Assembly (NCBI GenBank): GCA_024226335.1
Contig: JAAELY010000341.1
Coordinates: 1 to 43,823, forward strand
Direction of reading: 5' to 3'
DNA from: a bacterium
Lineage (GTDB): Bacteria > Myxococcota_A > UBA9160 > SZUA-336
DNA: 43,823 bases
Part shown: positions 4,030-31,088 of the stretch, in pieces
Numbering within the stretch: the first letter of the stretch is position 1
Layout of the letters: each line of letters opens with the position of its first letter
The notes under the pieces: model-generated
Database searches by the model: none
Seen by the model: the letters and a program-made list of their open reading frames with translations, nothing else
What the model was told of the DNA's origin: nothing
Program-made: the position numbers and the translations under genes

Positions 4030-4044
4030 GCAAATTCCTTTACA

Positions 4045-4062: not shown

Positions 4063-4079
4063 ACACTGTCCGGAACGAA

Positions 4080-4778: not shown

Positions 4779-4838
4779 ACAGATACCAGAGTTGCTCACG
4801 GTGCCGAGGCCGAGCCGTCAACGTCGGCAGCGCACGCG

Positions 4839-4857
4839 CCGAACCTATTCGGTTCGG
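4839..4857. terminator. Stem-loop between convergent genes, possible weak bidirectional terminator
   Basis: CCGAACC-TATTC-GGTTCGG is a perfect 7-base stem with a 5-base loop, placed between the convergent TetR and thiolase-like genes. No run of T follows on either side, so intrinsic termination would be weak. The rest of the 134-base gap shows nothing else recognisable. Confidence 0.35.
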
Positions 4858-4912
4858 TTCGACCTCCGAGAGCGGCTTCGGCGTTTCTGCGAGCGGCGAA
4901 AGGTTCAGAGAT

Positions 4913-6385: not shown

Positions 6386-6427
6386 TCTCTCTCCTGGGAT
6401 TGCTTGCGCAGCTGATATATTGCCTCG

Positions 6428-6934: not shown

Positions 6935-6943
6935 GGAGATCCC

Positions 6944-8020: not shown

Positions 8021-8079
8021 ATGACAACACGGATCGGGTCAACTAACGAATCCTGATCGCGGTTCGCGAGGGGAACAAC

Positions 8080-10943: not shown

Positions 10944-10972
10944 GCGAAGAGCCCAACCGGGGTCGGAGCATT

Positions 10973-10986
10973 TCCCATACATGGGA
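10973..10986. promoter_or_regulatory. Inverted repeat upstream of acyl-CoA dehydrogenase gene
   Basis: TCCCAT-AC-ATGGGA has perfect 6-base arms and lies about 80 bases ahead of the dehydrogenase start, in the 121-base gap after the GreA-like gene. It could be a repressor operator. There is no independent evidence for binding. Confidence 0.3.
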
Positions 10987-11064
10987 TCGATGTGTTATCT
11001 CCGAACGCGGAAAACGGATCCCGCGTCTCGTCCAGAGCAGCGGCCGCATTTGGAGGAATTACCG

Positions 11065-12258: not shown

Positions 12259-12324
12259 GCGACCGGACCCGAACACGCAGCTACTTCCCGATTTCTTTCG
12301 ACGCGATTCAAAGTGAGGACAGAC

Positions 12325-13464
12325 ATGAGCCTGGTACTGAGCGAAGAACAGGAACTCATCCAGCAGGCAGCTTCCGAGTTCCTGAAGGAGCAGACGCCGA
12401 TCACACACCTGCGCGAGATGCGAGACAGCGAGGATCCGGTCGGCTTTTCAAAAGCGCTCTGGAAAGAGATGGCGGAACTCGGCTGGGCCGGCATCCCCTT
12501 TTCCGAAGATGTAGGCGGTGCAGGCCTGGGCCTGGCCGAACTCGGTGTGATCGTCGAGGAATGCGGACGCACTCTGTCCCCCTACCCTTTTCTATCGAGC
12601 GTCGTTCTGGCCGGCGGGGCGATTGCGCTCGGCGGTAGCGAAGCCCAGAAGCAGGAAATCCTGACGGGCCTCTGCAAGGGTGAAACTCTGCTCGCCCTCG
12701 CCTTCCAGGAGACCGGGCGCTTTTCGCCCTGGGCCATCGGCACCAAGGCGGAAAAAGCCGGAGATGGATTTCGGATTTCGGGCGAGAAGCTCTTCGTACT
12801 CGACGGCCACGTCGCCGACCATCTGGTGGTGGCCGCGCGAACCAGCGGCAGTTCGGGCGAAGAAAACGGCATCACACTCTTTCTGGTAGATCCCTCGACG
12901 CAGGGTTGCACGGTCACCCGCTCGAGCATGATCGACAGTCGCAACGCGGCGCGAGTCGCGCTCTCGGACGTGACGGTCACCTCCAGCGCCGTACTCGGCG
13001 AAGTCGATCGGGGTGCGGAAATCCTGAACGCGGTTTTCGATCGAGCCACAGCGATTCTTTCGGCTGAAATGGTGGGAATCATCTCCGAGGTCTTCGAACG
13101 CACCGTCACCTATCTGAAAGAACGCGAGCAGTTCGGAGTGCGGATCGGCACCTTCCAGGCGCTGAAACACCGCGCCGCTGAGATGTTCTGCGAAGTAGAA
13201 CTGGCCCAGGCGGTCGTACTCGACGCCCTTCGGGCTCTGGACGAAGACCGGCCACACGCTTCGCGTGTGGTGAGTGCGGCCAAGGCGCGCTGCTCGGACG
13301 CTGCCAGTCTCATCACCTGCGAAGGCTTGCAGATGCACGGGGGCATCGGCATGACGGACGAAGAGGACATCGGCCTGTTTCTCAAGCGCGCGAAGACGGC
13401 CGAACTGAGCTTCGGCGATGCGGCCTTCCATCGCGACCGCTTCGCCCGCCTGACCGGATTCTGA
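12325..13464 (+). CDS. Acyl-CoA dehydrogenase, probable non-catalytic partner (beta-type) subunit
   Basis: A 379-residue acyl-CoA dehydrogenase-fold protein. The family core is present (CEGLQMHGGIGMTDEEDIGLF at the C-terminus in two segments). However, the stretch equivalent to the catalytic EGG(T/S) of the preceding gene reads AELSFGDAAFHR and has no glutamate in that position. The FAD-contacting middle region is also less canonical. In bacterial heterotetrameric acyl-CoA dehydrogenases one subunit lacks the base, and pairing with the 11065-12258 product is the natural inference. The ATG at 12325 is preferred because GAGGA lies five bases ahead; a GTG four codons earlier overlaps that ribosome site. 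Confidence 0.88.
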   Translation: MSLVLSEEQELIQQAASEFLKEQTPITHLREMRDSEDPVGFSKALWKEMAELGWAGIPFSEDVGGAGLGLAELGVIVEECGRTLSPYPFLSSVVLAGGAIALGGSEAQKQEILTGLCKGETLLALAFQETGRFSPWAIGTKAEKAGDGFRISGEKLFVLDGHVADHLVVAARTSGSSGEENGITLFLVDPSTQGCTVTRSSMIDSRNAARVALSDVTVTSSAVLGEVDRGAEILNAVFDRATAILSAEMVGIISEVFERTVTYLKEREQFGVRIGTFQALKHRAAEMFCEVELAQAVVLDALRALDEDRPHASRVVSAAKARCSDAASLITCEGLQMHGGIGMTDEEDIGLFLKRAKTAELSFGDAAFHRDRFARLTGF

Positions 13465-13551
13465 GACCGGCTCGGCGAGGCCGCAGCACCGGGCCAGCCA
13501 AGGATCGTCGAAGGCTCTACTGCGTGGGACGAAGCGCCTTGCCTGGTGTTC

Positions 13552-13579
13552 GCGACTGGTGCAAGCTGGCACTAGTCGC
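13552..13579. promoter_or_regulatory. Long inverted repeat between acyl-CoA dehydrogenase and P450 genes
   Basis: GCGACTGGTGC and GCACTAGTCGC form an 11-base stem with one mismatch around the 6-base loop AAGCTG. It sits in the 205-base gap ahead of the P450 gene. No T-run follows, so an operator for a dimeric regulator or an RNA hairpin is as likely as a terminator. Nothing else is recognisable in the gap. Confidence 0.4.
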
Positions 13580-13669
13580 CCCCGGAACGGGCGGCTCGCC
13601 AATGCCGGTTGGTACGAATCCTGCGTCGGAAGGGGTCGGGCACCGCCGGACACGAGGAGTTCGAAAACG

Positions 13670-14902
13670 ATGTCCCAGATCGATCCCCACCGCCTGGTCG
13701 ACCCTCAATCCTATGCCGCAAACGGCTACCCGTTTGCCGAATGGGCCCAACTCCGCCGAGAGTCCCCGCTCCAATTGTTCGAACCCGAGGGCTGGCCAGC
13801 CTTCTGGGCGGTCACGAAACATGCGGACATCGTGGAAATATCCAAGCAGCCGGAGCTCTTTCTGAACGGTCCGGGGATGACCCTGGTGCGGGACCGCGGA
13901 CAGGATTCTGCAACCCAGCAGACGATCAAGACGATCATCAATATGGATCCTCCGGAGCACCGGAAGTACCGCGGGATTGCCAGTCCGTTTTTCACGCCGA
14001 GAGCTCTGCAGGGTCTCGACGGCCTGGTCGAGGAAACGGCGCGAACGCTGGTCGACGCTCTGGGACCCCAGGGCGAATGTGACTTCATTAACGAGATCGC
14101 CTCGACCTACCCGCTCAAAGTCATCTGCCGGATTCTGGGTGTGCCCGAAGCCGATGAGCCCTTCATCCTGAAACTCACCAACCAGCTCTTCGGTACCGAA
14201 GATCCGGAGTTCCAGCGCGAAGGTGAACGCATGGAGGCACTCCGCGAACTCTTCATGGAGTTCTGGGAGTATTTCGGCAAGGTGATGGCGGACCGCCGCG
14301 CAAATCCGCGTGACGACCTGGCCAGCATCTTTGCCAATGCGAAGATCGACGGCGAGCCGATGGGTGAGCTCGAGACAATGGGCTATTGCCTGGTGACATT
14401 CACGGCCGGGCACGAAACGACCCGAGGCGCCATCGGCGGCGGCATGCGCGTCCTGATCGATCAACCCGACCAACTAGCTTTATGGCAACGCAAGCCCGAG
14501 ATCACACCTACGGCGATCGACGAGATCGTCCGCTTCGTGACGCCGGTCAACCACATGGTGCGAACGGCCTCCGAAGACTGCGAACTGAGTGGTCAACAGA
14601 TCAGAGAAGGACAGCGACTGGTTCTGTTTTACGGCTCTGCCAATCGCGATGAAGACATCTTCGAGCGACCCGACGAACTCGACCTGGAACGGGACCCGAA
14701 TCCGCACCTGGGATTCGGCATCGGCGAGCATTTCTGTCTGGGAGCGAACCTGGCCCGCAAGACGAGCGGTGCGATCTTCACGGAACTGGTCACACGACTC
14801 GAATCGATCGAAATCACGGGAAAGGTCGAGCGAACCGCTTCGAACCTGGTCCCGGGACTGAAGCATCTGCCCATCCGCTACCGACTCTCGGCGGCGGGCT
14901 GA
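13670..14902 (+). CDS. Cytochrome P450
   Basis: A 410-residue soluble bacterial class I P450 with no membrane anchor. All signatures are present: the I-helix oxygen-activation motif AGHETT at 246-251, the K-helix ExxR as Glu285-Arg288, and the heme loop FGIGEHFCLG with ligand Cys356. It hydroxylates an unknown, probably hydrophobic, substrate using electrons from a ferredoxin that is not encoded in this window. The upstream acyl-CoA dehydrogenases suggest a terpenoid, sterol or branched alkyl substrate, by inference. The ATG at 13670 has AGGAG at 13654-13658, a rather long spacing. The open frame extends upstream without P450 similarity. Confidence 0.96.
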   Translation: MSQIDPHRLVDPQSYAANGYPFAEWAQLRRESPLQLFEPEGWPAFWAVTKHADIVEISKQPELFLNGPGMTLVRDRGQDSATQQTIKTIINMDPPEHRKYRGIASPFFTPRALQGLDGLVEETARTLVDALGPQGECDFINEIASTYPLKVICRILGVPEADEPFILKLTNQLFGTEDPEFQREGERMEALRELFMEFWEYFGKVMADRRANPRDDLASIFANAKIDGEPMGELETMGYCLVTFTAGHETTRGAIGGGMRVLIDQPDQLALWQRKPEITPTAIDEIVRFVTPVNHMVRTASEDCELSGQQIREGQRLVLFYGSANRDEDIFERPDELDLERDPNPHLGFGIGEHFCLGANLARKTSGAIFTELVTRLESIEITGKVERTASNLVPGLKHLPIRYRLSAAG

Positions 14903-14926
14903 GCCAACAACGAAAGGACGCACGAC

Positions 14927-16174
14927 GTGGCGCGAATTATCTTCACAGGAGCAAATCTGGTCGACGGGAAAAGTGCCGCGCGGCGCGATGCAACGATCGT
15001 CGTCGAAGATGACCGCATAACATCTGTTGGAGATGATGCCGTCAAACCGGGGCCCGGAGATCGCCTGGTCGAACTCAACGGCGATACCCTGATGCCGGGA
15101 ATGCATACGTGTCATTACCACGCCAGCTATCAAGACTACGGACTGGACATTTTTCCGATCGGAATCGACCAGCCGGGAGGCGTGCTGCTCCTGCGCTCCG
15201 CCAACGCGGTTCGTTCCGCATTGATGACCGGTTTCACGTCGATCGTAGGAGCCGGTGGCGGTGACGACATCGACGCCCAGCTCGTGATCGCGATCGAAGA
15301 AGGCATCATTCCCGGTCCGCGCATCCTGCCCTGCAGTCGCGACTTCGGAACGCGCGGCGGCTACATCGATCTGTCGAACTGGTGGTGGAAGCTCGGCAAC
15401 ACCGGAGCAAGTCTACTCCTGTCCGGACCCGACGAATTTCGGGATGGTGCGCGTAACGAAATGAAGCGCGGTGCCCAGATGATCAAGATGTATGTGACCG
15501 GCGGACACGGCAATACCAAGACCGCCACTTCGGAGTACAGCCGAGACGAACTCGAGGCCGTGGTTCGAACCGTTCACGAGCGAGGTCGGCTGGTGCGGGC
15601 GCATTGCGCCTGGAAATCCGAAATGCTCCAGTGCATCGAACTCGGCGTCGATGTGATCGACCACGGCGACGAGATCGATGATGAAGTGATCGCCGCCATG
15701 GTCGAGGCGGGAACCTTCCTGGTGCCCAGCGCTCTCTTCCTGGAGAAGCTACTGGGGATCGAAGAGCTTCGCGTTCCGGGTACCGAGGAACTGATCGAAA
15801 CGACCGAACGGGAACTCGAAAACTTGAAGAAGTGGGTTCCCCGCGCCCAGAAGGCGGGCGTCCGACTCCTGCTCGGCGACGACTACGGCGCGGCTCCCCT
15901 GCCCCACGGAAACTACACCGAAGAGATGGAGTTCTACGTCAAGCACTTCGGCATCTCGCCGCTCGAGATCATTCGTTGGGCGACAGTGAACGGAGCGGAA
16001 CTCGAGGGAGTGACCGATGAACTCGGCACGGTCGAGGAAGGCAAGCTCGCCGACCTGCTCGTGGTCAACGGAGATCCCAGTGTCGACATCAGCGTCCTGC
16101 GCGACCCGCAGAATCTGCGCATGATCATGAAGGGCGGGGAACTCGTGAAGGACGAGCTCCCGGCTGCGAGCTAG
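14927..16174 (+). CDS. Metal-dependent amidohydrolase (imidazolonepropionase/prolidase-like)
   Basis: A 415-residue amidohydrolase-superfamily TIM barrel with the usual small beta-sandwich at both ends. The metal-site residues are present: His63 and His65 in HTCHYH, Lys187 in MIKMYVTGG, His226 in VRAHC, His246 in DHGDEID, and Asp318 in LLLGDDYG. The lysine suggests a carboxylated bridging ligand and two metals, as in Xaa-Pro dipeptidase-like members. The substrate is unknown. No signal peptide is seen. The GTG start has AAAGGACG upstream. It follows the P450 by 24 bases and is probably in the same transcript. Confidence 0.9.
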   Translation: MARIIFTGANLVDGKSAARRDATIVVEDDRITSVGDDAVKPGPGDRLVELNGDTLMPGMHTCHYHASYQDYGLDIFPIGIDQPGGVLLLRSANAVRSALMTGFTSIVGAGGGDDIDAQLVIAIEEGIIPGPRILPCSRDFGTRGGYIDLSNWWWKLGNTGASLLLSGPDEFRDGARNEMKRGAQMIKMYVTGGHGNTKTATSEYSRDELEAVVRTVHERGRLVRAHCAWKSEMLQCIELGVDVIDHGDEIDDEVIAAMVEAGTFLVPSALFLEKLLGIEELRVPGTEELIETTERELENLKKWVPRAQKAGVRLLLGDDYGAAPLPHGNYTEEMEFYVKHFGISPLEIIRWATVNGAELEGVTDELGTVEEGKLADLLVVNGDPSVDISVLRDPQNLRMIMKGGELVKDELPAAS

Positions 16175-16179
16175 ACATC

Positions 16180-16590
16180 TTGATCGCATCGGCTCCATCT
16201 GAAGCGAAGTTCGAACTCTTCGTAAACGATCCAATTACCTCGATCGAGTTCTACGAGGCGGCGGGTTTCGAAATCGTCGAAGCCAAGTCCGACGGCTACA
16301 CGACCCTTCGCACGGGACCGATCGTGATCTCTCTTTCGCCGCTCTCTACCTGGATTCCCTTGCGCTGGCTGTCCGTACTTCGGGGACCGCCACTGGGCAC
16401 CGAGATCGTGCTCTACGCCGATCGACTCGAAGATACGCAACGGCGCCTGACCGAAGCCGGATTCAAGCCCACTCCAGTCGTGCTTCAAGAATGGGGCCTG
16501 CGCGACTTTCGGGTTCGAGATCCGGAGGGCTACTACATCCGCTTCACGGAAGGGCGCGCCGCGACGCTGGCGCCGACTGGCTCCGAATAG
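16180..16590 (+). CDS. VOC family (glyoxalase/bleomycin-resistance-like) protein
   Basis: A 136-residue protein with the beta-alpha-beta-beta-beta repeats of the vicinal oxygen chelate fold. The opening FELFVNDPITSIEFYEAAGFEIVE and the closing LRDFRVRDPEGYYIRFTE (given in segments of the conserved core) are typical. Such proteins are dioxygenases, lyases or binding proteins, and no specific role can be assigned. The only plausible start is a TTG at 16180, six bases after the amidohydrolase stop, with no strong ribosome site. It closes the catabolic block. Confidence 0.8.
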   Translation: MIASAPSEAKFELFVNDPITSIEFYEAAGFEIVEAKSDGYTTLRTGPIVISLSPLSTWIPLRWLSVLRGPPLGTEIVLYADRLEDTQRRLTEAGFKPTPVVLQEWGLRDFRVRDPEGYYIRFTEGRAATLAPTGSE

Positions 16591-16797
16591 CCGGGAGCCT
16601 GCGAAATCCCCCGGATTCCGCGCTCCGAACGATGAACCTGCCGCTTGCTGAGCGCCTGAAACCGGGCCGCCCAGCGGAGCTTCATCTCCCCTTCATATTC
16701 GCTTAACCGCGCTCTCATCCACCGCCCCGATGATGTCATCAGGTGAGCCCGATGCACCCGGTGGACGATCCGTCGGAGAGAACTTGTGGGAGAGCAG

Positions 16798-17196
16798 ATG
16801 CGCGCGACCAAATTCAGATTTCTGGCACTTGCAGCCGTCGCGGTCTTTGCGTCGGGCTGCTTCTCGGTGCGACACAGCTACAACGGCGACAAGATCCTGA
16901 CCACGGACGGGAGCATACCGGGGGTCACGCTACGACCCGCCGGGCACTTTGAAGCTCACGATCGACAGTTCTTCTGGCTTCACGGCGGCATTCCGGTGGG
17001 GGAAAACCTCAACGGCGCAGCACTGGCTGCAAAAGCGGCCGGAGAACACGATGGCGTCGTCAATCTGAAACTCTCGGATGGTCAAGACTTTACGGACATG
17101 GCGATCTCCCACGTAGCCTGCGTGCTCACTCTTCTATGTGGGACCTGGTCGGTGTGGGTCGAAGGCGATGTGGTCGACCTGGAGGACGGGCGATGA
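16798..17196 (+). CDS. Small lipoprotein, Bor-like
   Basis: A 132-residue exported protein with an N-terminal signal (RATKFRFLALAAVAVFASGC) ending in a lipobox-like ASGC; Cys18-20 region is the likely lipidated residue. The rest resembles Bor-type outer-membrane lipoproteins in layout: a short Trp/Phe motif QFFWLHGGIP and a C-terminal hydrophobic stretch ISHVACVLTLLCGTWSVWV. The similarity is weak, so the name is tentative. The ATG at 16798 is preceded by GGGAGAG. It is the first gene of the long envelope operon, after a 207-base gap in which I see no confident promoter. Its stop overlaps the next start (ATGA). Confidence 0.68.
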   Translation: MRATKFRFLALAAVAVFASGCFSVRHSYNGDKILTTDGSIPGVTLRPAGHFEAHDRQFFWLHGGIPVGENLNGAALAAKAAGEHDGVVNLKLSDGQDFTDMAISHVACVLTLLCGTWSVWVEGDVVDLEDGR

Positions 17197-17570
17197 AGAC
17201 GGCAAGCTTCAGAATTGCACTCGGACTCGCGATCGCCGGGTTGTGCAGCGGTTGTATGTTCAAGGTGAGCCACGAGTTGCCGCCGAAGACCTACTTCGGC
17301 AAGCTTCCCAACGCTCCTGCAGCCACGGAGCAGAAGTTCGAACGCCAGGGTCACAAGAACTGGTGGCTCGCGGGCCTGGTGCCGTACTCGGACTGGGGCA
17401 CTCGGGATCTACTCGCATCAAGTAGCGGCGTACAGCGCATCGAGGATCTGGAGATCGAAACGACGTTCGACACGTTCGATACGATCGTGTGGGTGATTCC
17501 GGGTTTTGCCTACGGGTATTACCTCTGGGCACCACGCTCGATCAAGGTCAAAGGTGTCGAGGTCCGGTGA
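17193..17570 (+). CDS. Small predicted lipoprotein of unknown function
   Basis: A 125-residue protein with a signal sequence ending in LCSGC, so it is probably lipidated at that cysteine. Recognisable features are KNWWLAGLVPYSDWGTRDLL in the middle and the hydrophobic IVWVIPGFAYGYYLW near the end. The overall layout (signal, Trp-rich turn, short hydrophobic C-terminal hairpin) repeats that of the preceding lipoprotein, so the two may be distant relatives. I do not recognise a family. The start overlaps the preceding stop and has GGAGG upstream, which indicates coupled expression. Confidence 0.72.
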   Translation: MKTASFRIALGLAIAGLCSGCMFKVSHELPPKTYFGKLPNAPAATEQKFERQGHKNWWLAGLVPYSDWGTRDLLASSSGVQRIEDLEIETTFDTFDTIVWVIPGFAYGYYLWAPRSIKVKGVEVR

Positions 17571-17584
17571 CGAGGTGCTTCGAG

Positions 17585-18808
17585 ATGACGATGGCGCGTT
17601 TGCTGGCGGTGCTCTTGTTCCTGCTACCGCTTGGCGCATTCGCAGGGGCGCTCGAGCGCGTCGACCTGCACGCGAGCAAGATCGAGGGCTGTAAAGGACT
17701 CCCCCTTCCGAGTACAGATCGCTCGTTGCGCATCTCTGGAAGCCGCGCGGTCGATGTAGACGCCCGCTACTGGGTTCTCGATCGCCCGGCAGCTTTTGAA
17801 AACGGTGTGGCCGTCACGCGTTATCGCGTAGGCGAGGGCCTGCTGCGGATCGAATCTCGACTCGCTTCGGATTTCACGCAGGAAGTCGTGTCGATCCGTG
17901 TGGAGCGAACGATCGAGCCATCATATCTGGCGATCTATCTGGCCGGAGTCACGCTGCCGTGCGAGCGACAAACGCGTTACTCGGTGAAGCGGGGCAAGGA
18001 CACCGACGGCGACATCGAGCAGCTCGCCGAGTTCGACCGGAACCTGCACCAGGCCGAGGAGCTCGGGTACGATCGGCTTTTCAGCGAGGCCGAAGCCCTG
18101 CTGCGCCGCGCGATTGAGTTACGTCCCGACGACTCCGCTGCGCATTGGATGATGTCGCGCCTGAGTTATCTGCACCTGGAAGCGCGCGCGAGTGAGTTGC
18201 CGAGTTCTCAACGCGTTCAAGGCTACGAAGAGGCGGAGGTCTGGGCCGACCAGGCGGTCGCCCGCGCTCCCCTGAAAGCCGAGGGGTATCTCTGGCAGGG
18301 AGTCGCGCGCGGGCGCATCGCGACCAGCCTGGGCAATATTCGAATCGCTCTCCAGGGAGCCTTCGGAGGCCGGGGACCCAAGTGGCTGGAACAGACGCTG
18401 GCCAGGGCGGCTTCGCTGCAGGACGACTATCGCTTCTTTGGCTTCTCGACGCGCGCGGACGCACTGTACGCCCTGGCACAGTTCTACCGGCTCGCCCCGG
18501 ACGCCTGGTATATGAGCGTCGTCGGAACGCGTGGCGACCTGGATCGTTCCATCGAACTCCTCGAGCAGGCCGTGGAGATCCAGCCGGTGCGAATCGAGTA
18601 CCGCAAGGAACTGGCCGTCGGATTGCTGTGTCGCGGTAGCAGCGACGATATCGCTGCGGCGCGGTCACAACTCGAAGCGATCCTGCGGCTTCCCGCGATC
18701 AGCGCGATCGACGGCATCGACCACGCGCACGCGCGAGCCATGCTCGGCGAAAGCCCACAGAACATCTGCTGGTACTCGCGGGATGGCTTCCAGAAAGCGG
18801 ACTCGTGA
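17585..18808 (+). CDS. Secreted TPR-repeat protein
   Basis: A 407-residue protein with a cleavable signal peptide (ARLLAVLLFLLPLGAFAGA). Residues about 20-140 form a beta-rich domain of unknown type with two cysteines. From about residue 150 onward there are helical tetratricopeptide-like repeats, such as FSEAEALLRRAIELRPDDSA and RSIELLEQAVEIQPVRIEY. TPR arrays usually scaffold protein complexes, so a periplasmic assembly role for the exporter encoded downstream is inferred. The start is the ATG at 17585 with GAGG upstream; a second ATG two codons later is possible. The stop overlaps the next gene. Confidence 0.78.
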   Translation: MTMARLLAVLLFLLPLGAFAGALERVDLHASKIEGCKGLPLPSTDRSLRISGSRAVDVDARYWVLDRPAAFENGVAVTRYRVGEGLLRIESRLASDFTQEVVSIRVERTIEPSYLAIYLAGVTLPCERQTRYSVKRGKDTDGDIEQLAEFDRNLHQAEELGYDRLFSEAEALLRRAIELRPDDSAAHWMMSRLSYLHLEARASELPSSQRVQGYEEAEVWADQAVARAPLKAEGYLWQGVARGRIATSLGNIRIALQGAFGGRGPKWLEQTLARAASLQDDYRFFGFSTRADALYALAQFYRLAPDAWYMSVVGTRGDLDRSIELLEQAVEIQPVRIEYRKELAVGLLCRGSSDDIAAARSQLEAILRLPAISAIDGIDHAHARAMLGESPQNICWYSRDGFQKADS

Positions 18809-19296
18809 GGCGCGTCGCAAAGTTCTCGCTGCTGATCTGCATCATGGCCTTTGCCGTGAATCCGGCATTCTCGCAGGAACCGAAATCGGACAAGGGCCGC
18901 GTCTGGCAGATCAACGGTATTCGACTCGAACAAGACCAGATCGAACGACTGGCTCTCGACATGGCCGAGCGCACCGTAAAGGCCGTCGAGGAGAAGGTCG
19001 AGGGAATCGCCCTGGAAGACAGCCAGCGGAGCGCAATGCGCAAAGCCTACCGCAAGGTCTCACTGGACGTTTACGACGAAGTCGTGCGTGTCGTGAGTGA
19101 AGAAGCGACGAGTAATGCGCAGAAGGAGACGCGGGTACGCGAACTCATACTCGCCGGGCAGAAGCGCAGTCACGCGCTCCTGGTCGAAGTTCTCGACGAT
19201 CGTCAGATGCGTCTGTACTCGAAGTGGGAGGACCAACAGGTGGAAGCATTCCAGAGCAAACGCTGGGAAAATCGACGCCGGCGGAGACGGCGCTGA
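18805..19296 (+). CDS. Secreted helical protein of unknown function
   Basis: A 163-residue protein with a signal peptide cleaved near AFSQEP. The mature part is almost entirely charged helix (QIERLALDMAERTVKAVEEK and later KETRVRELILAGQKRSHALL). It ends in a strongly basic tail with a run of arginines. The layout resembles small periplasmic helical proteins such as Spy/CpxP-like or outer-membrane-associated factors, but no motif supports a name. The GTG start overlaps the TPR gene stop (GTGA). The stop and the next ATG share one base, so it is embedded in the operon. Confidence 0.65.
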   Translation: MRRVAKFSLLICIMAFAVNPAFSQEPKSDKGRVWQINGIRLEQDQIERLALDMAERTVKAVEEKVEGIALEDSQRSAMRKAYRKVSLDVYDEVVRVVSEEATSNAQKETRVRELILAGQKRSHALLVEVLDDRQMRLYSKWEDQQVEAFQSKRWENRRRRRRR

Positions 19297-19976
19297 TGCT
19301 CCGCACGACACTCCTGCTAACACTCCTCCTGCTCGCGCCCAGCTCCGCTCACGCCGACGGATCGAACTCCGGAACATTGGACTCCGGAACATTAGACTGG
19401 GAGGTGCAAGAAGATCCCGCGGGGCCCGGTCTGACCTGGCTTCGCGGAGCGCGCGATGGAGTACTCGGACTCTTCGACACAGTCACCGACCTGCAGCTCA
19501 GCCTGTTCTCGGAGACGTCACTGCTTTTGGGTACGGTGGTCATGGCCGCTTCCGACACTGTAGGAGTCGTGGATGACAACCCGGTCACCCAATACGTCTT
19601 CAAGGCCGTAGCCAGCAAGTCGCTGGCCAAGACCGCCTACCTGCTGAATCTCGCCGGGAGCGAGGCCATTCTGGGAAGCCACGGATTGGAGAAGGAGTGG
19701 TACATCGAGGCGGCTCTGACCGAACTCAACCCGCTGCTCGGCGGCGATCCGGTAGGTCCAGCCATTCTGTTGGACCCACTCGACTTCTTCGATGACCGCA
19801 TGGTGCACACTGCGGTGTACCGCTCTCGTATCCCAGGGACGGTGGCCCTCGCCTCGCTCGGAGCCGACGGTCTGCTGCGACCGCTGAGTTGCCTGGCGCG
19901 CATCGCCGGTCTACACAAACCTGCGGATGCGCTGCAGGCCAGCGCGACGGCCTTGATGCGCCGGGCCATCGATTGA
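19296..19976 (+). CDS. Secreted protein of unknown function
   Basis: A 226-residue exported protein with signal peptide LRTTLLLTLLLLAPSSAHAD. The mature N-terminus has a near-perfect tandem repeat of five residues (SGTLD, SGTLD) encoded by two 15-base copies at 19366-19395 that differ at one base. The rest is amphipathic, with a Phe/Asp-rich stretch LDPLDFFDDRMVHTAVYRSR, and may associate with membranes. I do not recognise a family. It shares one base with the preceding stop (TGATG), and its own stop overlaps the TTG start of the RND exporter, so it is likely a co-produced partner of that exporter. Confidence 0.65.
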   Translation: MLRTTLLLTLLLLAPSSAHADGSNSGTLDSGTLDWEVQEDPAGPGLTWLRGARDGVLGLFDTVTDLQLSLFSETSLLLGTVVMAASDTVGVVDDNPVTQYVFKAVASKSLAKTAYLLNLAGSEAILGSHGLEKEWYIEAALTELNPLLGGDPVGPAILLDPLDFFDDRMVHTAVYRSRIPGTVALASLGADGLLRPLSCLARIAGLHKPADALQASATALMRRAID

Positions 19977-22261
19977 GGAACTTCTCGAGCGCCGTCGAGC
20001 GTCTGGTTTCCGCTAGCGGAGCACTCTTGCTCGGTGCTGCGCTCCTGCTCACGCTGGGGCTCGGAATCGGATACGCGCAACTCGGCTGGACCAACGATCC
20101 CGAGGTCATCACTCTGGAAGGCTCGGATGATCTGGACTTCTACCGGGGCTTCGTCGAGCGCTGGGGCAGCGATGAACTGATCGTACTGGCCTACCCGGTC
20201 GAAAATGCTTTTGCACCGGCACGCCTGAAACAACTGCGCTCGCTGACCGATGCGCTGCTCGACCTGGATTCGGTCCGCTGGGTTGCATCCCTGGACACGG
20301 CATTCCAGATCGATACTGGCCCCTTCGGACCCTATGCGCGCCCACTGGTACCCGACGATGTCGAGTCCGCCGCCAGCCTGCGTGCGGAAGCACTTTCCAG
20401 CCCCTTCGTTCGCGATGCGCTGGTCTCGGCCGACGGTCGCGCATTGCTTCTGGCCGTCCAGCTGGCAGGTGCAGACCTGGACAACTCGGAGATCGAACGT
20501 TCGGTACTCGCCGGAATCGATCGAGTTCTAGAAGATCCCGAGTTCGCCGATCTACAGGTACACCGGGCAGGCTCTCCGGTATTCAATCGCGCGCTGACCG
20601 AACTCAACCAGCGGGACAATGCGCTTTTCACCCCGCTCGCGCTGGTGATCATCGCCCTCCTGCTCTCGGCGCTTTTCCGCAGTGTGCTGCCGACGGCCCT
20701 GGCACTTGGCGTCGTAGGGATGAGTCTGGTCTGGACTCTGGGCGTCATGGGCTGGCTGGGCGTTTCGATGAACATCACGACATCGTTGCTCCCTCCACTT
20801 CTGATGGTGATCGCCGTGGCCGACGCCGTACACATCATCGCCGCCTACATCGAAAGGCTGGGCGAAGGCGACTCCCGCGCCCAGGCCCTGCACTGGACGC
20901 TTTTCGAAGTCGCACCCGCATGCTTCTGGACCTCGCTGACGACGGCACTCGGCTTCGCGTCGCTCCTGCTCGTACGCATCGAAAGCGTGCGCGTGTTCGG
21001 AGTATTCGCCGTGCTCGGCGTCTGGATGGCCTTCGCAGTTGCGGTCATCGTGCTTCCGGCGGCGCTGATTCGTCTGCCTCTGGAGGGCGCGGCGCGACGA
21101 CGTGCAGAGCTTCCCGTACTGCGCAGACTGGCCGGACTAGCATCGCGGCCGTGGACGGCGATCGTCGTGCTGGTTGTCGCACTGATCATCGGAGCGATCG
21201 GTGCTCCGAGAATCGAGGTCGCAACGCACGATGGCGAGTTCTTCCAAGCCTCCCACCCCGTAAACCTGGCCTATCGTTTCATCGAATCGAAGCTGCAAGG
21301 CGTGACTCCGCTGGAAATCGAGATTCGCGCACCGGAACCCGGAGCATTGCGAAGTCCGGCGGCGCTGCGCGGAATTCAGCACCTGCAAGCCCATCTTCAG
21401 GGACGTGAAGAGCTGACCGCGGGTACTTCGATCATCGATCTGATCCTGAGCACCTCCCCGGGAATCGATCTGGCGGACGACGCGGCCCTGGAACGCGCGC
21501 TCTTCCTGCTTCAGACGATCGCTCCTGAGGAAGTCGAACGCTTCCTGCACGAGGACGCAACGCTGGGCCGGATCAGTTCACGAGCAATGGCCATGACGTC
21601 GGCACAGAGTGAAGCTTTGATCGAAGGGCTGGAATCCCGGGCGGCCGAACTCTTCGACGCGGACTGGCAAGTGCGCTTCACCGGGCTGGTTCCGGTGTTT
21701 TCGCAGATGGAGCAATATCTGGTCGAAGGTCAGTTGCGCAGCTATCTGTTCGCGATCTTCGGCATCGGAGTCGCACTCTGGGTGATCTTCCGCTCGCTCT
21801 TCCTGGCCGTGCTCGCACTGGTAGCCAATCTGGTGCCGATCGGCATTGCGGCCGGCGTCATGGGCCTGGCCGAGATGCGCCTCGACGTGGCGACGATCAT
21901 GGTCGCGTCGGTCGCGCTGGGCATCATCGTCGACGATACGATCCACGTGCTCCACGCTTTTAATCGCGCGCTCGCACAGGGACTGGAGGTCGAACCTGCG
22001 GTATCCCGGGCACTCGAAGTCGCTGGACGGCCGGTACTGCTCACGTCGCTGATTCTGGTCTGCGGATTTGCGGCGCTCGGGCTTTCGGATTTCCAGCCGA
22101 CCGGGCATTTCGGGCTTCTGGTCAGCATCGCGGTAGCGGGTGCGCTCGTCGCAGACCTGATTGTGCTGCCCGCAGCACTCATGCGCCTGCCAGCCCACAT
22201 AACAAGTTCGATCGGAAAAGGTATTCCGGACGAGAGTCCAGACAGGAGCCTCAAGGCATGA
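19973..22261 (+). CDS. RND superfamily exporter (MMPL/HpnN-type, sterol-sensing-like)
   Basis: A 762-residue inner-membrane protein with the duplicated RND layout: TM1, a periplasmic loop, a five-helix bundle, then the same again. Each half has an acidic motif in its fourth helix, IAVADAVHIIAAY in the first and IIVDDTIHVLHAF in the second, the expected proton-relay positions. The size and loop lengths fit the MMPL/HpnN or COG1033 group, which exports lipids or hopanoids, rather than tripartite AcrB-type drug pumps. I take the TTG at 19973 as the start because it overlaps the previous stop (TTGA); an ATG 28 codons upstream lies inside the preceding gene. It is the transporter of this operon. 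Confidence 0.88.
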   Translation: MRNFSSAVERLVSASGALLLGAALLLTLGLGIGYAQLGWTNDPEVITLEGSDDLDFYRGFVERWGSDELIVLAYPVENAFAPARLKQLRSLTDALLDLDSVRWVASLDTAFQIDTGPFGPYARPLVPDDVESAASLRAEALSSPFVRDALVSADGRALLLAVQLAGADLDNSEIERSVLAGIDRVLEDPEFADLQVHRAGSPVFNRALTELNQRDNALFTPLALVIIALLLSALFRSVLPTALALGVVGMSLVWTLGVMGWLGVSMNITTSLLPPLLMVIAVADAVHIIAAYIERLGEGDSRAQALHWTLFEVAPACFWTSLTTALGFASLLLVRIESVRVFGVFAVLGVWMAFAVAVIVLPAALIRLPLEGAARRRAELPVLRRLAGLASRPWTAIVVLVVALIIGAIGAPRIEVATHDGEFFQASHPVNLAYRFIESKLQGVTPLEIEIRAPEPGALRSPAALRGIQHLQAHLQGREELTAGTSIIDLILSTSPGIDLADDAALERALFLLQTIAPEEVERFLHEDATLGRISSRAMAMTSAQSEALIEGLESRAAELFDADWQVRFTGLVPVFSQMEQYLVEGQLRSYLFAIFGIGVALWVIFRSLFLAVLALVANLVPIGIAAGVMGLAEMRLDVATIMVASVALGIIVDDTIHVLHAFNRALAQGLEVEPAVSRALEVAGRPVLLTSLILVCGFAALGLSDFQPTGHFGLLVSIAVAGALVADLIVLPAALMRLPAHITSSIGKGIPDESPDRSLKA

Positions 22262-23586
22262 TGTATTCGAGTACGCTGGTTTCGACACTCAACAAACTTC
22301 GCCTCCTTCCGATCACAAAGCGGCGTCTGTACATGACCCCGGCGAAGCTGGAAAGCGTTCAGTTGCGCATGCTGCAACGCACGCTTTTCGACGCTTACCG
22401 TCACGTACCGCTCTACACCGAGAAGTTCGACAAGGCGCGATTTCTTCCAGATGACCTGCGGAGCCTGAGCGACTTGGCTCGTTTTCCGATCACGGAGAAA
22501 GACGAAGTCCGCGACGCGTTTCCGAACGGATGCATCCGACGGGGTACCGATCTGGCGCAATGCCGCATCCAGCAGACCTCGGGATCCTCGGGTCAATGCA
22601 TGGAGATCGCACTCGATCGCAAGAGCGACGACCACCGCACCCTGTTCACCGAAAGAGTCTACCGACTGCAGGGGTTCACTTTCTGGCGGCGGGCCGCCTA
22701 TCTCTTCCCCTATCCGCTTCCGCTGCAGAAGAACCTCGGCTTGTACCGCAACAAGCACATTTCGACGGAATCGCCGCCGGAACAGATCGTGGCAACACTT
22801 CGCGACTGGCGACCTCATCTGCTGGCGGCCACACCCAGCGATCTTCTCGATTTGTGCGAGAAGGTCGATGACGACATGACGCAACTGGGAATCAAGGCCA
22901 TCTCGGTGCACTCCGAACCCATGTCCGCAGATGAGAAGGCGTTCGTTTCGGGGCGCTTTGGCTGTCGGATCACCACCAACTACTACTGCAACGAAGCCTG
23001 GGCAATCGGCGCAGAGTGCAAGAGCGGTTCGCTGCATCAGTTTCCGGACAGCACCGTCGTGGAAATCGTCGATGACCGCGGCCACCCGATGCCGCGCGGC
23101 CAGATCGGACACGTGCTGGTCACTTCACTACACAACTACGCGCAGCCGTTCATCCGCTACCGTCTCGGAGACATGGCCGCGTGGGATCCTTCAAATGAAC
23201 CCTGTGCTTGCGGTCTGGTTCTGCCTCGCCTGCTCGCATTGGAGGGTCGTGACGATGACTACATCGAGTACCCCGACGGTCGACGCGTTCGTCCGTCCAA
23301 TCTCACGGTCGCTGTGAAGAGCCCCTGCTTCGAATACCCGGGAGAACAGATCTTCCGCGACTACCGGATCACCCAGGACTCTGACAGGAGCGTGACGGTC
23401 TATCTGGTTCCCGGCCGTGACCGCGAGCACTTCGACGAGTGCGCAAAACTGGGTCGCGCAAATCTCGCAACCGTTCTCGGAGAACCTTTCAGCGTATTCC
23501 TCGAAGTCTGCGACGGCCTCGATCGAGGCACCGGCGGCAAGCGCAAGATCGTGGAACGCCTGTTTCGGCGGGAGCCAAACGGGTGA
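22258..23586 (+). CDS. PaaK-like adenylate-forming CoA ligase
   Basis: A 442-residue member of the phenylacetate-CoA ligase/CapK group of acyl-adenylating enzymes. The N-terminus has RHVPLYTEKF. The phosphate-binding loop is QQTSGSSGQCMEIALDR near residue 103. Further family blocks include NYYCNEAW near 240 and YAQPFIRYRLGDMAAW near 283. These enzymes activate an aromatic or aliphatic acid as the adenylate and transfer it to CoA or another acceptor. Its length fits complete family members. Location inside an exporter operon rather than a phenylacetate catabolic cluster argues for a biosynthetic substrate. Two adjacent ATG codons are possible; the first overlaps the exporter stop and has AGGAG upstream. 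Confidence 0.85.
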   Translation: MMYSSTLVSTLNKLRLLPITKRRLYMTPAKLESVQLRMLQRTLFDAYRHVPLYTEKFDKARFLPDDLRSLSDLARFPITEKDEVRDAFPNGCIRRGTDLAQCRIQQTSGSSGQCMEIALDRKSDDHRTLFTERVYRLQGFTFWRRAAYLFPYPLPLQKNLGLYRNKHISTESPPEQIVATLRDWRPHLLAATPSDLLDLCEKVDDDMTQLGIKAISVHSEPMSADEKAFVSGRFGCRITTNYYCNEAWAIGAECKSGSLHQFPDSTVVEIVDDRGHPMPRGQIGHVLVTSLHNYAQPFIRYRLGDMAAWDPSNEPCACGLVLPRLLALEGRDDDYIEYPDGRRVRPSNLTVAVKSPCFEYPGEQIFRDYRITQDSDRSVTVYLVPGRDREHFDECAKLGRANLATVLGEPFSVFLEVCDGLDRGTGGKRKIVERLFRREPNG

Positions 23587-24566
23587 CTCCCGCCGATCTG
23601 CACAGATTGAGCTTCGACTTCCGCGCGGCGCGCGCAGTGTATGCGGGCGTAGAACTCGGGATCTTCGAAGCCCTGGCAGCCGGTCCGGTCGATGTGAAGA
23701 CACTGTCCGAGAGACTCCCTGCGGATCCTCGGGGACTGCGCGTTCTTCTGGACGCGCTGACGGCACTCGATCTGCTGCTGCGCAATGACGATCACTACTC
23801 CCTTGGCGACTCTGCAGCCGTCGCACTCGTTCCCGACTCCGAGGGTTATCTGGGCAACCTCTTCCTGCACGATCTCTGGCACTGGACCAGCTGGGCGGGA
23901 CTGGACGCGGTGGTTCGCGATGGCGCACCGCAGCCGGATCGCCAGCACGATCGACATCTGAGTGATCCCGCGGTTCTCACCCGCTTCCTGCCCAATTTCA
24001 ACCTTGCCATGGAACAGAGTGGGCGGGAATTTCTGACTCCGCTTGCAGACCTGATCGCCGACCTCGAACCCGAATCCATTCTGGATCTCGGAGGGGGTGG
24101 CGGTGTGTTGTTGCTGGAACTGTTGGAGCGTCTACCCCGGGTGCGAGCCGTACTTGTCGAGCACGGCTTTGCGCTAGAGCATGCGCGCAAGAATATCGAC
24201 GCCCACCCAGAGGGGAAGCGGCTCGAACTTCTCGATCTCGACTTCGAACAGAACGAGATCCCCTCGGGCCATGACGTCATCGTCCTGTCCCGCGTGATCA
24301 TGGGCTTCACAGCAGAACGGGCGGCCCTCGTACTGAAAAGAGCCGCCGAGCAGCTGGCACCGGGCGGCGCACTGGTCGTGGCCGACTTCGATTCGACCTC
24401 GCGCGTCGGTGCGCTGCTTTCCCTCGACATGCTGCTCAACACCGGTGGCGGAGTGCACGATGGTCGTCTGATCCTCGACTGGATGGGCCAGGCCGGGCTG
24501 GAAGACGAAAGCCGTGGACATCTACTGCCCTATTTCGGTTTCTGGATCGGAAGGAAGCTACCTTGA
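23583..24566 (+). CDS. SAM-dependent methyltransferase (O-methyltransferase family 2-like)
   Basis: A 327-residue enzyme with an N-terminal winged-helix dimerisation domain (YAGVELGIFEALAAGPVDVK, then ALDLLLRNDDHYSLG). A C-terminal Rossmann methyltransferase domain follows. SAM motif I is ILDLGGGGGVLLLEL near residue 163, and LAPGGALVVADFD near 262 is the post-motif strand. The architecture matches the plant-type and actinobacterial O-methyltransferases, such as acetylserotonin or hydroxyneurosporene methyltransferase, which act on phenolic or alcohol oxygens. The GTG start overlaps the preceding stop (GTGA). It probably modifies the same molecule that the PaaK-like enzyme activates. Confidence 0.86.
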   Translation: MTPADLHRLSFDFRAARAVYAGVELGIFEALAAGPVDVKTLSERLPADPRGLRVLLDALTALDLLLRNDDHYSLGDSAAVALVPDSEGYLGNLFLHDLWHWTSWAGLDAVVRDGAPQPDRQHDRHLSDPAVLTRFLPNFNLAMEQSGREFLTPLADLIADLEPESILDLGGGGGVLLLELLERLPRVRAVLVEHGFALEHARKNIDAHPEGKRLELLDLDFEQNEIPSGHDVIVLSRVIMGFTAERAALVLKRAAEQLAPGGALVVADFDSTSRVGALLSLDMLLNTGGGVHDGRLILDWMGQAGLEDESRGHLLPYFGFWIGRKLP

Positions 24567-25573
24567 AAGCGTTCGCCATCGCACTGAGCCTGCTATTCGC
24601 GTGTTGTACCGTCTCGGCCCGGGCCGAAGCAAGCGTGTACACGCCACCGCCCTGCCTCGACATGAGCTCGGCCGCGTCAGAAGAAGACCTCCTGCGCTGC
24701 TACGCACCTGTCTGGATCGCGCCCGAAACAGAAGCCAGCTACAACCGGATTGGATCGCCGGAGCTGTACCGCGGGTGGCTCGGTGGCACAAAGGCTCGTG
24801 TAGATACGAAACGGGCCACGATGTACGGCGAGATCCGACGCGATCAGATCGGCGATTCAGCGATCCTCCAGCTCGTCTATCGGATTCACTTCGAGAAGAT
24901 TCCCCTGCGCTTTTCGCGTTACTTCTTCGAAGCTCATCGCAACGCCGGACTGCTCGTGGTGGTAACGCTCGACGAACAGAGTCGCAGACCGCTCTTCCTC
25001 ACCGCAGTACATTCGTGTGGTTGTTACCGATACACACTTCCGACCGACCATCTGGAACGCTCGCAGCTTCCAGAGGAGTGGCCCGACGAAATCCGAATTT
25101 TCAGTCAACATCTACCCGGAGTTCTGGCCGTAGCCGGAAAGAAGGGAGCAAGACCCGTCATATCGCTGGCTCCCACCAGCCATCGCGTGACCGATCTGGA
25201 CTTCAGCAGTCAGCTTCCGGAAGGCGGCGCCGTCGAACTTCCACTGATCCCGATGGACTCCCTGCGGAATCTGCCGATCGAAGGTGATCGGGAGGGGCGC
25301 AGAGGTTCCTTCTTCTACTCGTCGGGTCCACTGCGCGGCCACGTTCGCGGTGCCTGGAATCCCATGGAGGGGCTGACACTTTTCGGGCTCCTGTCCCTCG
25401 ACCCGACGGTGGGAATGGACAAGGATTTTGGCGATCCGGAAGTGACCGGAACGACGTTCTACACTTCGCTGCCTTTCTGGAAGCACCAGCGCTCGCGCCT
25501 GGATCGCTTCGATTCGATCCTGCGCGACCTCGGCTTCCGGATGAGTGCGACGGAAACGGAAATGGCAGAGTGA
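24563..25573 (+). CDS. Secreted protein of unknown function, 336 residues
   Basis: An exported protein with a signal peptide ending near VSARAEAS. The mature part is mostly beta, with no transmembrane helix. Paired cysteines occur at CLDM and LLRCY near the N-terminus and as SCGCY in the centre. Recognisable stretches such as LYRGWLGGTKARVDTKR and YRIHFEKIPLRFSRYFFEAH are strongly patterned but belong to no family I know. A surface, outer-membrane or hydrolase-like role cannot be distinguished. The TTG start overlaps the methyltransferase stop (TTGA) and has AAGGAAG upstream, so it is part of the same coupled operon. Confidence 0.7.
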   Translation: MKAFAIALSLLFACCTVSARAEASVYTPPPCLDMSSAASEEDLLRCYAPVWIAPETEASYNRIGSPELYRGWLGGTKARVDTKRATMYGEIRRDQIGDSAILQLVYRIHFEKIPLRFSRYFFEAHRNAGLLVVVTLDEQSRRPLFLTAVHSCGCYRYTLPTDHLERSQLPEEWPDEIRIFSQHLPGVLAVAGKKGARPVISLAPTSHRVTDLDFSSQLPEGGAVELPLIPMDSLRNLPIEGDREGRRGSFFYSSGPLRGHVRGAWNPMEGLTLFGLLSLDPTVGMDKDFGDPEVTGTTFYTSLPFWKHQRSRLDRFDSILRDLGFRMSATETEMAE

Positions 25574-25641
25574 GGCTCGCGGAAAGACGTGCGCACAAAC
25601 GACTCCGGAGTTGATATTCACGACGTGGGCTTTCTGGCTTC

Positions 25642-26529
25642 GTGAGATTCCTTCGACTCGCCCTCCCGTGGGCCATCGGCGTCGGCATCTTCTTCGTGCT
25701 CTTCTGGCGGATCGATGCAGCCGAAACGCTGGCCGCACTGAAGGCCGGCGATCTTCTTCGCTACGCGCCGATCGCCTGTGGCTTCATCGCCCTGTGGTTG
25801 GCGATTGACGCGTACATACTCCACTGGCTGTTCTCGCGCATCGCAGGCCCGTTGAGTTTCGTGGAGATGGTCCGAATGCGAGCCGAGACCTACCCGGTCA
25901 TGGTCGTCTCGTTCGATCTGGCCAGCGCTGCACTCGTGGCCGCGATTTGTCGGCGTACCGGTTCGCCGGTGACGCGCGTCGCCGGCGGAATGCTGGTGCA
26001 CTATTTGGGAGATCTGGCCGCAGTCACGGGTCTGGCCTTCACCGCGTCGGTCTTCGTCGACTCTCCGCTCATCGCTGGACTGCGACCATTGCTGGCCGTA
26101 TTGTTCATAGGCTTCAGCGCCGTATTGCTGGCGGGTCGACTCGGCCGGGGCGTGCTTCGCGGGCGCCCTGTCGTCGAGTCCCTGAGCGAACTGTCCGTCT
26201 CTGAAGTCGCTCGATTGATCGGCTCGCGGGTGATCTTTCAGGCGAGCTTCGCCGGATTCGTGTGGCTGACGCTTCCGAGCTTCGGCCTCGAGGTTTCCGC
26301 ACTCGACGCCGCCGCGCGTATGCCGATCGTACTCAGCATCGGTGCGCTGCCGATCACGCCAGGGGGATTGGGTACGACCCAGGCGGCGATCAGCGGATTT
26401 TTTGGCGAGTTCGGCGACCCCGCAAAGGTTCTGGCCTACGGCCTGGTCTACGGTTTCACGCTGATCGCCCTGCGCCTGCCTCTGGGTCTCGGCGTATGGC
26501 TGCTATCGGGCCGACTCGAAAGCAGATGA
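25642..26529 (+). CDS. LPG synthase-like integral membrane protein (UPF0104/YbhN-type)
   Basis: A 295-residue polytopic inner-membrane protein with about seven hydrophobic helices. The C-terminal signature LPITPGGLGTTQAAISG near residue 233 is the conserved motif of the lysylphosphatidylglycerol-synthetase transmembrane family. It lacks the cytoplasmic aminoacyl-transferase domain of MprF, so it corresponds to the flippase-like half only. Members of this type are proposed to move lipids across the inner membrane. The start is a GTG, 68 bases after the preceding gene. It is the last plus-strand gene of the envelope operon, and the next gene is convergent. Confidence 0.82.
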   Translation: MRFLRLALPWAIGVGIFFVLFWRIDAAETLAALKAGDLLRYAPIACGFIALWLAIDAYILHWLFSRIAGPLSFVEMVRMRAETYPVMVVSFDLASAALVAAICRRTGSPVTRVAGGMLVHYLGDLAAVTGLAFTASVFVDSPLIAGLRPLLAVLFIGFSAVLLAGRLGRGVLRGRPVVESLSELSVSEVARLIGSRVIFQASFAGFVWLTLPSFGLEVSALDAAARMPIVLSIGALPITPGGLGTTQAAISGFFGEFGDPAKVLAYGLVYGFTLIALRLPLGLGVWLLSGRLESR

Positions 26530-27687: not shown

Positions 27688-28635
27688 TCAACCGATCCGC
27701 CTGCGGAAGGCTTCGACAATCGGCGAAAGAAAATCGCGCGCTGCGGAGAACTCCCTCGGGAGCTTCGGATGGATGCGCAGATCCGTAATGCCCGCCGCGA
27801 GCAGATCGGGCACGACCGACATCGTCTCTTCCAGGTCGATCCCTCCGGCGGCGGAGCGCACCAGCGGCAGGAAGCTCGTCACCTGAAACTTCTTCGGATC
27901 GCGACCGGCCGCCACGAGTGCTTCGCGGATGCGCGCGAGTCCCACGACTGGATCCGTCGCATCGGGCCCCCAGGGAATCCAGCCGCTGCCGAAACGCACG
28001 ATGCGCCGGAGCACATTCGGGTTGAGCGTTCCGCTGATCCAAAGCGGCACACCCCCGGACTGCAGCGGTTTGGGCACACAGTGGATGTTCTCGAAACTCA
28101 CTTCGTCCGAAGCGTAGCTGGCCGAGCGTTCGCGCCAGAGCGTCTGGCAGATGTCGAGAGTCCGATCCAGGCGTGCTCCGCGATGCTCCCACGGAACGCC
28201 ATTGGCCTCGTACTCCTCGCGTTGCCAACCCACGCCTACGCCCAGATCGAGCCGACCTTCGGAAAGTGCGTCGAGTGTCGCGCAGGTCTTCGCCAGATTC
28301 GCGGGCCGACGCAGACCGGCGATCAGGATCCCGGTCATCAGGCGCGCGCGCGTGGTGAGCGCGGCGCACATCGAAAGGACCACCAGCGGATCGAGCCAGG
28401 AGCCATCGGGACCGGTCGGTTGTCGGCCACCCTTTAGACCGCCTAGCTTTGGATCGCCGTAGGCTTCGAGGTTCTCGCCGAGAATCACGTGGTCCGAGAC
28501 GACGAGCCGATCGATACCCGCGACATCCGCGGCACGCGCCTGCTCGAGCAACGGCCTCCAGCCCCCGGCCTCGGGGTCGCTCCTGGCGAAGTTCAAAATC
28601 TGCATCGACAGCGCGGGCCTGGGCGCATCGGACAT
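27688..28635 (-). CDS. LLM class F420-type oxidoreductase
   Basis: A 315-residue bacterial luciferase-like TIM barrel. Conserved blocks include [20 protein letters not shown] near residue 43, [17 protein letters not shown] near 145, and the [13 protein letters not shown] region. This set matches the TIGR03619-type F420-dependent enzymes rather than FMN monooxygenases, although FMN use cannot be excluded from sequence. The substrate is unknown. The ATG at 28633-28635 has GGAAAG ahead of it; another ATG four codons upstream is equally in frame. It is divergent from the copper ATPase. Together with the DUF385 gene at 6428 it implies that the host makes F420. Confidence 0.86.
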
Positions 28636-28718
28636 CTGGCTTTCCATTCTTCTGGTTCGAGATCCCGGGGTCGGACTGGTCGGAGAAGATGCCTCGTCCC
28701 GCCCGGCGGTGCCGCCCG

Positions 28719-28747
28719 TTGTCGCGAGATGATCTTGGGGATACGCT
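28719..28747 (+). promoter_or_regulatory. Possible sigma-70-type promoter of copper ATPase gene
   Basis: TTGTCG, a 17-base spacer and TACGCT lie 47 bases ahead of the ATPase start in the divergent gap. Only about four of six and three of six bases match the consensus. No CueR-like dyad was found within the spacer, so this is a weak suggestion. Confidence 0.22.
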
Positions 28748-28793
28748 GGCATCCTGCGGGTGGCGACCTGCGAATCCGAAGCGGAGGAAAAGC

Positions 28794-31088
<2,295 letters not shown>

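Follow-up and report, generated by a model that had tools for sequence, protein, structure and literature searches.

Structure and conservation of the operon

Do the ten genes at 16798-26529 of the stretch of DNA analysed here (43,823 nucleotides, hereafter the window) form one functional system, and if so, what would this system make or move? A preliminary description, made from the sequence alone, had proposed that they activate, methylate, flip and export an aromatic or lipid-linked compound and knew of no characterised cluster with this set of genes; our literature search likewise found no description of the combination. The window corresponds to contig C341 in a genome bin (G000) of 5.75 Mb that is 97 % complete, and its list of open reading frames confirms ten ORFs on the + strand in this interval. 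They are given below with their orthologues in G003, G005 and G007, which belong to the window's family, and in G034, which belongs to another.

g1, 16798..17196, + strand: small lipoprotein, signal ending in ..FASGC; ORF; orthologue in G003 at 53-55 %; no family
g2, 17193..17570, + strand: small lipoprotein, signal ending in ..LCSGC; ORF with 4-base overlap; orthologue in G003 at 50 %
g3, 17567..18808, + strand: secreted protein with weak TPR repeats (Pfam TPR below cut-off); orthologues in three genomes
g4, 18805..19296, + strand: secreted protein, C-terminus rich in Arg, without a known family; orthologues in G003, G034 and G005 at 42-54 %
g5, 19296..19976, + strand: secreted protein of a family without match; present in 4 of 379 phylum genomes
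g6, 19973..22261, + strand: MMPL/HAE3-type RND transporter by model scores and full-length alignment; four orthologues
g7, 22258..23586, + strand: PaaK-like adenylate-forming enzyme, motifs kept; orthologues at 64 % (G003) and 52 % (G034)
g8, 23583..24566, + strand: SAM-dependent O-methyltransferase (Dimerisation and Methyltransf_2 domains), GGGxG kept; orthologues at 51 % and 35 %
g9, 24563..25573, + strand: secreted protein, probably a local addition; relatives only in G003
g10, 25642..26529, + strand: flippase-like membrane protein of the LPG_synthase_TM family (PF03706); orthologues in G003, G034, G005 and G007 at 36-47 %

The first nine genes (16798-25573) are coupled at all eight junctions, seven of which are 4-base overlaps (g1/g2, g2/g3, g3/g4, g5/g6, g6/g7, g7/g8 and g8/g9) and one a 1-base overlap (g4/g5), and g10 follows g9 after 68 bases. 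The tight coupling and the more distant tenth gene had both been described before; of the overlaps of up to eight bases that were also claimed, none of that length exists. The start of g3 may be the GTG at 17567, which gives the 4-base overlap with g2, or the ATG at 17585, which would leave a gap of 14 bases. A convergent aldo/keto reductase gene lies 18 bases beyond the end of g10. A scan for sigma-70-like promoters found none as against 2.1 expected by chance, and a scan for terminator-like sites found no more than the chance level. Elsewhere in the window, a large ORF at 28449-31088 resembles, by eye from its translation, a P-type ATPase for heavy metals (copper) whose N-terminal region is YHS-like, and the chain encoded at 8080-10452 combines two CoA-transferase family III stretches.

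The order of these genes is kept in a few distant relatives. G003 (MAG SZUA-336, QJZC01000008.1) carries nine of the ten (g1-g8 and g10) on a single contig, in unchanged order and within about 11 kb, G034 (MAG OFTM159, JAJDAP010000116.1) carries seven, g3-g8 and g10, in order within about 13 kb, and G005 has g3-g6 on a contig of 3.4 kb and the flippase gene on a separate contig of 5.4 kb. Since the order thus recurs in distant genomes at protein identities of about 35-64 %, g1-g8 and g10 are a conserved unit and not a product of chance. Beside the collinearity over two families and the coupled junctions, a gap in the bit scores of g6 speaks for this unit: a profile of g6 finds four members at 1006 bits or more among the phylum genomes, the next matches lying at 447 bits and below, and this drop marks g6 as a group of its own. 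That unrelated neighbours came together by chance, to which we give practically no weight for the cluster as a whole, is refuted for g1-g8 and g10 and is probably true of g9 only. The scattering of homologues that the preliminary description had named as the sign of an accidental order is likewise confined to g9.

The gene system is rare. Among 379 genomes sampled from the phylum, four have g5, and a scan of the genome_contigs collection with an alignment of g7 returned only the already known loci of G003 and G034. No g7 was found in G005 at E <= 1e-40, which may reflect a gap in the assembly, since the contig of G005 breaks off inside g6; g7 is also missing from G040, which shares its genus with G034, and this points to a patchy distribution. 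All loci are from MAGs, the G003 genome being 73 % complete, and the evidence comes from three or four genomes. If our assignment is right, g4, g5 and the g6 clade would serve as marker genes for spotting the system in other genomes.

We think that g9 probably joined the operon locally and is an accidental neighbour. Its relatives were found only in G003, where there are two copies that each stand alone, and it sits in the slot that is held by an SDR gene in the relatives; as its relatives stand alone, we reject g9 as a member of the system. Its structure model has a pLDDT of 48.7 and its fold search gave E values no better than 4e-3. Its best PDB matches are to the NLP (necrosis-inducing) fold family, with three structures at E 4e-3 to 2e-2, a weak lead as to the fold; the GHRHDWE motif of the NLP family is missing from g9, and no Pfam family matches it either.

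Predicted properties of the encoded proteins

The signal sequences of g1 and g2 both end in SGC, a feature conserved in G003, and thus agree with the earlier assignment of two lipoproteins. The two proteins are distant paralogues (20-26 % identity), and a Pfam search as permissive as E 10 gave neither of them a family that rises above noise. The TPR nature of secreted g3, stated without reserve before, shows in weak hits below the Pfam cut-off; its orthologues are 48 % (G003), 37 % (G034) and, over the part held, 62 % (G005) identical. The three further secreted proteins g4, g5 and g9 have signal-like N-termini as read from the translations and, like g1 and g2, matched no family in searches with domain models, in line with their earlier description as unknowns. 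The model of g5 is mostly helical and of low confidence (pLDDT 52.8), and we regard the models of both g5 and g9 as too poor to carry claims. Myoglobins came up weakly with the g5 profile (E about 0.01); these matches were taken as chance, since those listed all come from one over-represented family and cover short stretches. A distant paralogue of g5 (about 25 % identity) occurs in G005 (L030 5526-6233, contig C89), on a short contig that by eye carries genes for CoA-transferase-like, sulfatase-like and phosphate-binding-protein-like products and has no RND gene.

As to the pump, g6 matches the MMPL domain (PF03176) with 112 bits (cut-off 20.5) in two stretches, which places an MMPL domain in both halves of the protein, and it aligns with its orthologues over the full length. 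It scores 217 bits with the HAE3-like model TIGR00921, under the cut-off of 352. The MMPL part of the earlier designation as an MMPL/HpnN-type pump hence stands, whereas the HpnN part does not: g6 reaches 64.7 of the 751.85 bits required by TIGR03480 and 18.1 of the 1100 bits of a second HpnN model. Its closest solved relatives are MmpL lipid or siderophore exporters and NPC1. Genes for a tripartite RND adaptor (MFP) or an outer-membrane channel were found neither among the ten window proteins nor among the scanned extra genes of the relatives.

The adenylation motifs (Q)TSGSSG, NYYCNE, RYRLGD, GRDDD and GGKRKI are invariant in the three g7 orthologues, and the closest solved structures are PaaK ligases (4e-38), which upholds the PaaK-like assignment at the level of likeness. 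The protein lies outside the PaaK equivalog itself (108 of 646 bits with TIGR02155) and scores below cut-off also with NF045666 (117 bits) and with Pfam AMP-binding (24.5 bits, cut-off 29.9). Ranked by identity, its relatives drop from 64 % (G003) and 52 % (G034) to 31 %. As had been suggested, g8 is of the O-methyltransferase type, with Dimerisation (50.0 bits) and Methyltransf_2 (45.1 bits) domains both above cut-off and the SAM motif GGGxG kept in the orthologues; its closest solved relatives are mostly small-molecule and largely aromatic or polyketide methyltransferases (RedM, MmcR, phenazine and anthraquinone enzymes). Finally, g10 belongs to the LPG_synthase_TM family PF03706 (46.4 bits, cut-off 33.4), again as described before; a flipping activity is what this membership would predict.

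Additional genes in the relatives

In the relatives the cluster contains further members, namely two large cytosolic WD40 double propellers (WDa and WDb), a protein with an FGE domain, and an SDR. The order in G034 is 5-haem cytochrome c, cytochrome b, 13-haem cytochrome c, g3, g4, g5, g6, WDa, g7, WDb, FGE, g8, SDR, g10, and that in G003 is g1-g7, WDb, g8, SDR, g10, WDa, with FGE divergent and upstream of g1; the 5.4 kb contig of G005 carries SDR, the flippase gene, cytochromes and WDa. The three cytochromes are thus embedded in the cluster of G034 and G005 and absent from that of G003. The 5-haem cytochrome c is lipid-anchored, and there is a weak MtrC/MtrF domain match among the cluster cytochromes. 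In G003, and there only, ketosynthase and ACP genes (L031 588-2159, contig C25) adjoin FGE upstream of the operon; they are possibly housekeeping genes and possibly part of the system there.

The window genome presents a reduced picture. WDa and WDb lie away from the operon on contigs C193 and C82, WDa being split over the ends of the two; both contigs share the bin with the window, though a shared bin does not prove a single organism. A gene for a haem-b/4Fe-4S membrane protein lies 6 bases after WDb. A search of G000 found no FGE gene, no 5-haem gene and no orthologue-level SDR, the SDRs present being generic (148 bits as against 463-484), and the nearest relative of the 13-haem cytochrome is encoded elsewhere and is not the same protein. 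G000 also has adjacent genes for two multihaem cytochromes, one with 21 CxxCH motifs and the other with at least 31 (L076 6790-10640, contig C358); neither is an orthologue of the 13-haem cytochrome found in the cluster.

Two further genomes bear on the history of the cluster. G007 carries a remnant consisting of FGE and then, divergently, the tail of SDR, the flippase gene and the genes for the 5-haem cytochrome, cytochrome b and the 13-haem cytochrome, the genes expected between FGE and the truncated SDR being missing. The SDR fragment matches the last 47 residues of SDR, and its stop still overlaps the flippase start. The simplest reading, based on few genomes, is that G007 arose by deletion from a G003-like layout with the cytochromes of G005 downstream. 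In G063, a member of a third family, the genes for the 13-haem cytochrome and cytochrome b stand divergent to an HAE3 pump (32 % identity to g6) without the rest of the cluster, and the 5-haem gene lies about 2.5 kb past the pump. Judged by these gene contents, the operon of the window would represent about half of the full system. We found no description in the literature of an export operon combined with an electron chain and two WD40 proteins.

Proposed function

The explanation that we prefer, and to which we give somewhat less than an even chance, is that the window holds a trimmed trans-envelope system which modifies and exports a hydrophobic acyl or aromatic compound and which is redox-linked in the relatives. 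In such a system g7 would activate a carboxylic acid in the cytosol to an adenylate or thioester, g8, in the relatives together with SDR, would modify the activated product, and g10, as a member of PF03706, would shift the hydrophobic or lipid-borne product over the inner membrane. The g6 pump, with the TPR protein g3, with g4 and g5 and with the lipoproteins g1 and g2, would then carry it towards the outer membrane. In the relatives, electrons from the quinol pool probably travel outward by way of cytochrome b, the 13-haem cytochrome c and the lipid-anchored 5-haem cytochrome c, which suggests that the exported compound is there redox-active or acts with surface electron transfer. The WD40 double propellers may serve to keep the cytosolic enzymes in one assembly, a speculative role guessed from the fold, and the identity of the product and its redox role are speculative as well.

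Each enzymatic, transport and electron-transfer step of this scheme is deduced from protein families, and so is the aromatic or lipid-linked character of the compound. A hydrophobic acyl or aromatic compound is supported by the closest solved relatives of g7, g8 and g6, by the kept motifs of g7 and g8 and by the flippase-family protein. The coupled reading frames, the shared gene order, the interleaved genes of the relatives and the G007 remnant also favour our explanation, and for an RND protein with a TPR-like periplasmic partner that binds a lipid in a bacterium there is the precedent of BstA/BstC (PMC10942540). Against it stand the poor models of g5 and g9, the lack of adaptor and outer-membrane channel genes and the fact that the conserved members of the cluster include no enzyme for building a carbon skeleton. 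The redox coupling, moreover, is not essential everywhere, since the window genome lacks the 5-haem cytochrome, FGE and an orthologue-level SDR and its 13-haem relative differs; the G003 cluster is without cytochromes too. The logic of activation, methylation, flipping and export put forward in the preliminary description keeps its basis in a conserved unit of enzymes, pump and flippase; the WD40, FGE, SDR and cytochrome genes were not foreseen by it.

But could the operon not simply belong to one of the known systems that it resembles? Clusters for aryl polyenes (APE) unite acid activation, head-group methylation, RND/MMPL export and lipoproteins (PMC8253772), features that they and flexirubin clusters have in common with this operon, and g7 and g8 give scores with the FlxY and FlxJ models (79 and 38 bits) that are far under the cut-offs. 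A diverged or remnant aryl-polyene/flexirubin cluster, which such scores and the RND transporter and methyltransferase of these clusters might suggest, is nevertheless a very improbable reading and one that we reject: ketosynthase/CLF, ACP, dehydratase, acyltransferase, DUF3261 and a LolA-like gene are missing here, the synthase genes being absent from both the window operon and the G034 cluster, while the WD40, FGE and cytochrome genes of the relatives do not appear in the APE gene table of PMC8253772. The window genome carries a separate aryl-polyene-type cluster (contig C172, L093 about 2582-18460) that encodes ketosynthases, a ketoreductase and an AMP ligase together with two ACPs, a DUF3261 lipoprotein and an RND transporter of its own. 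More weight, if still that of an unlikely alternative, is due to a system for transport or maintenance of envelope lipids, as HpnN for hopanoids and BstABC for sterols, in which the enzymes would edit the lipid and the cytochromes would be bystanders. It would accommodate the relationship of g6, an MMPL/HAE3-branch protein, to HpnN and MmpL, the flippase-family g10, the secreted partners and the two lipoproteins, and it has a precedent in Methylococcus capsulatus, where BstA, an RND protein, and BstC, a helical and partly TPR-like periplasmic partner, both bind sterols (PMC10942540). The operon shares with BstA/BstB/BstC the pairing of an MMPL-family RND protein with a TPR-like periplasmic partner for a hydrophobic compound; it differs in having no PhnD-like BstB and no sterol genes and in having a ligase, a methyltransferase and a flippase-family protein instead. 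Similarly, g6 is of the same superfamily as HpnN (64.7 bits with TIGR03480) but stays far under the cut-offs of 752 and 1100 bits, and no hopanoid genes were recognised beside it. The cluster contains no lipid-synthesis gene, a PaaK-like ligase and a dimerisation-type O-methyltransferase are unusual for lipids, and cytochromes that are embedded in the clusters of G034 and G005 and retained in the remnant of G007 do not look like bystanders.

These same cytochromes would be the core of the cluster if it were an extracellular electron-transfer system whose enzymes make and export a redox shuttle, a reading we likewise consider unlikely. They stand in or beside the cluster in G034, G005 and G007, G063 has the same three genes close to an HAE3 pump with the rest absent, and even in G000 a haem-b/4Fe-4S membrane protein is encoded directly after WDb. 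The clustering of cytochrome b, a many-haem and a lipid-anchored multihaem cytochrome c recalls MtrC/MtrF and cytochrome c7/c554 conduits; here, however, no outer-membrane porin partner was recognised, and the operon is present without these cytochromes in G000 and G003. A regulatory or conflict-type system built on the WD40 and FGE modules is a good deal less probable. FGE-like domains are a known effector part and WD40 repeats are sensors in related complexes (PMC7159879), yet no STAND, AAA, protease or nuclease module was recognised in the clusters, and their constant core consists of transport and small-molecule enzymes.

We thus return to the export of a modified hydrophobic compound as the best explanation of the operon. 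Its most far-reaching form would be a redox-coupled export machine, in which a methylated aromatic or lipid-borne electron carrier is flipped, pumped and, in the relatives, charged by the haem chain, with the WD40 proteins as a platform; we think this doubtful. If the explanation that we prefer is right, one genetic unit of an uncultured bacterial lineage would join the synthesis of a small molecule to RND export of the lipid type and to electron transfer at the surface, and the WD40 and FGE modules would have an unexpected partner. If only the export half is right, the operon would still be an undescribed envelope cluster with a product that can be searched for.
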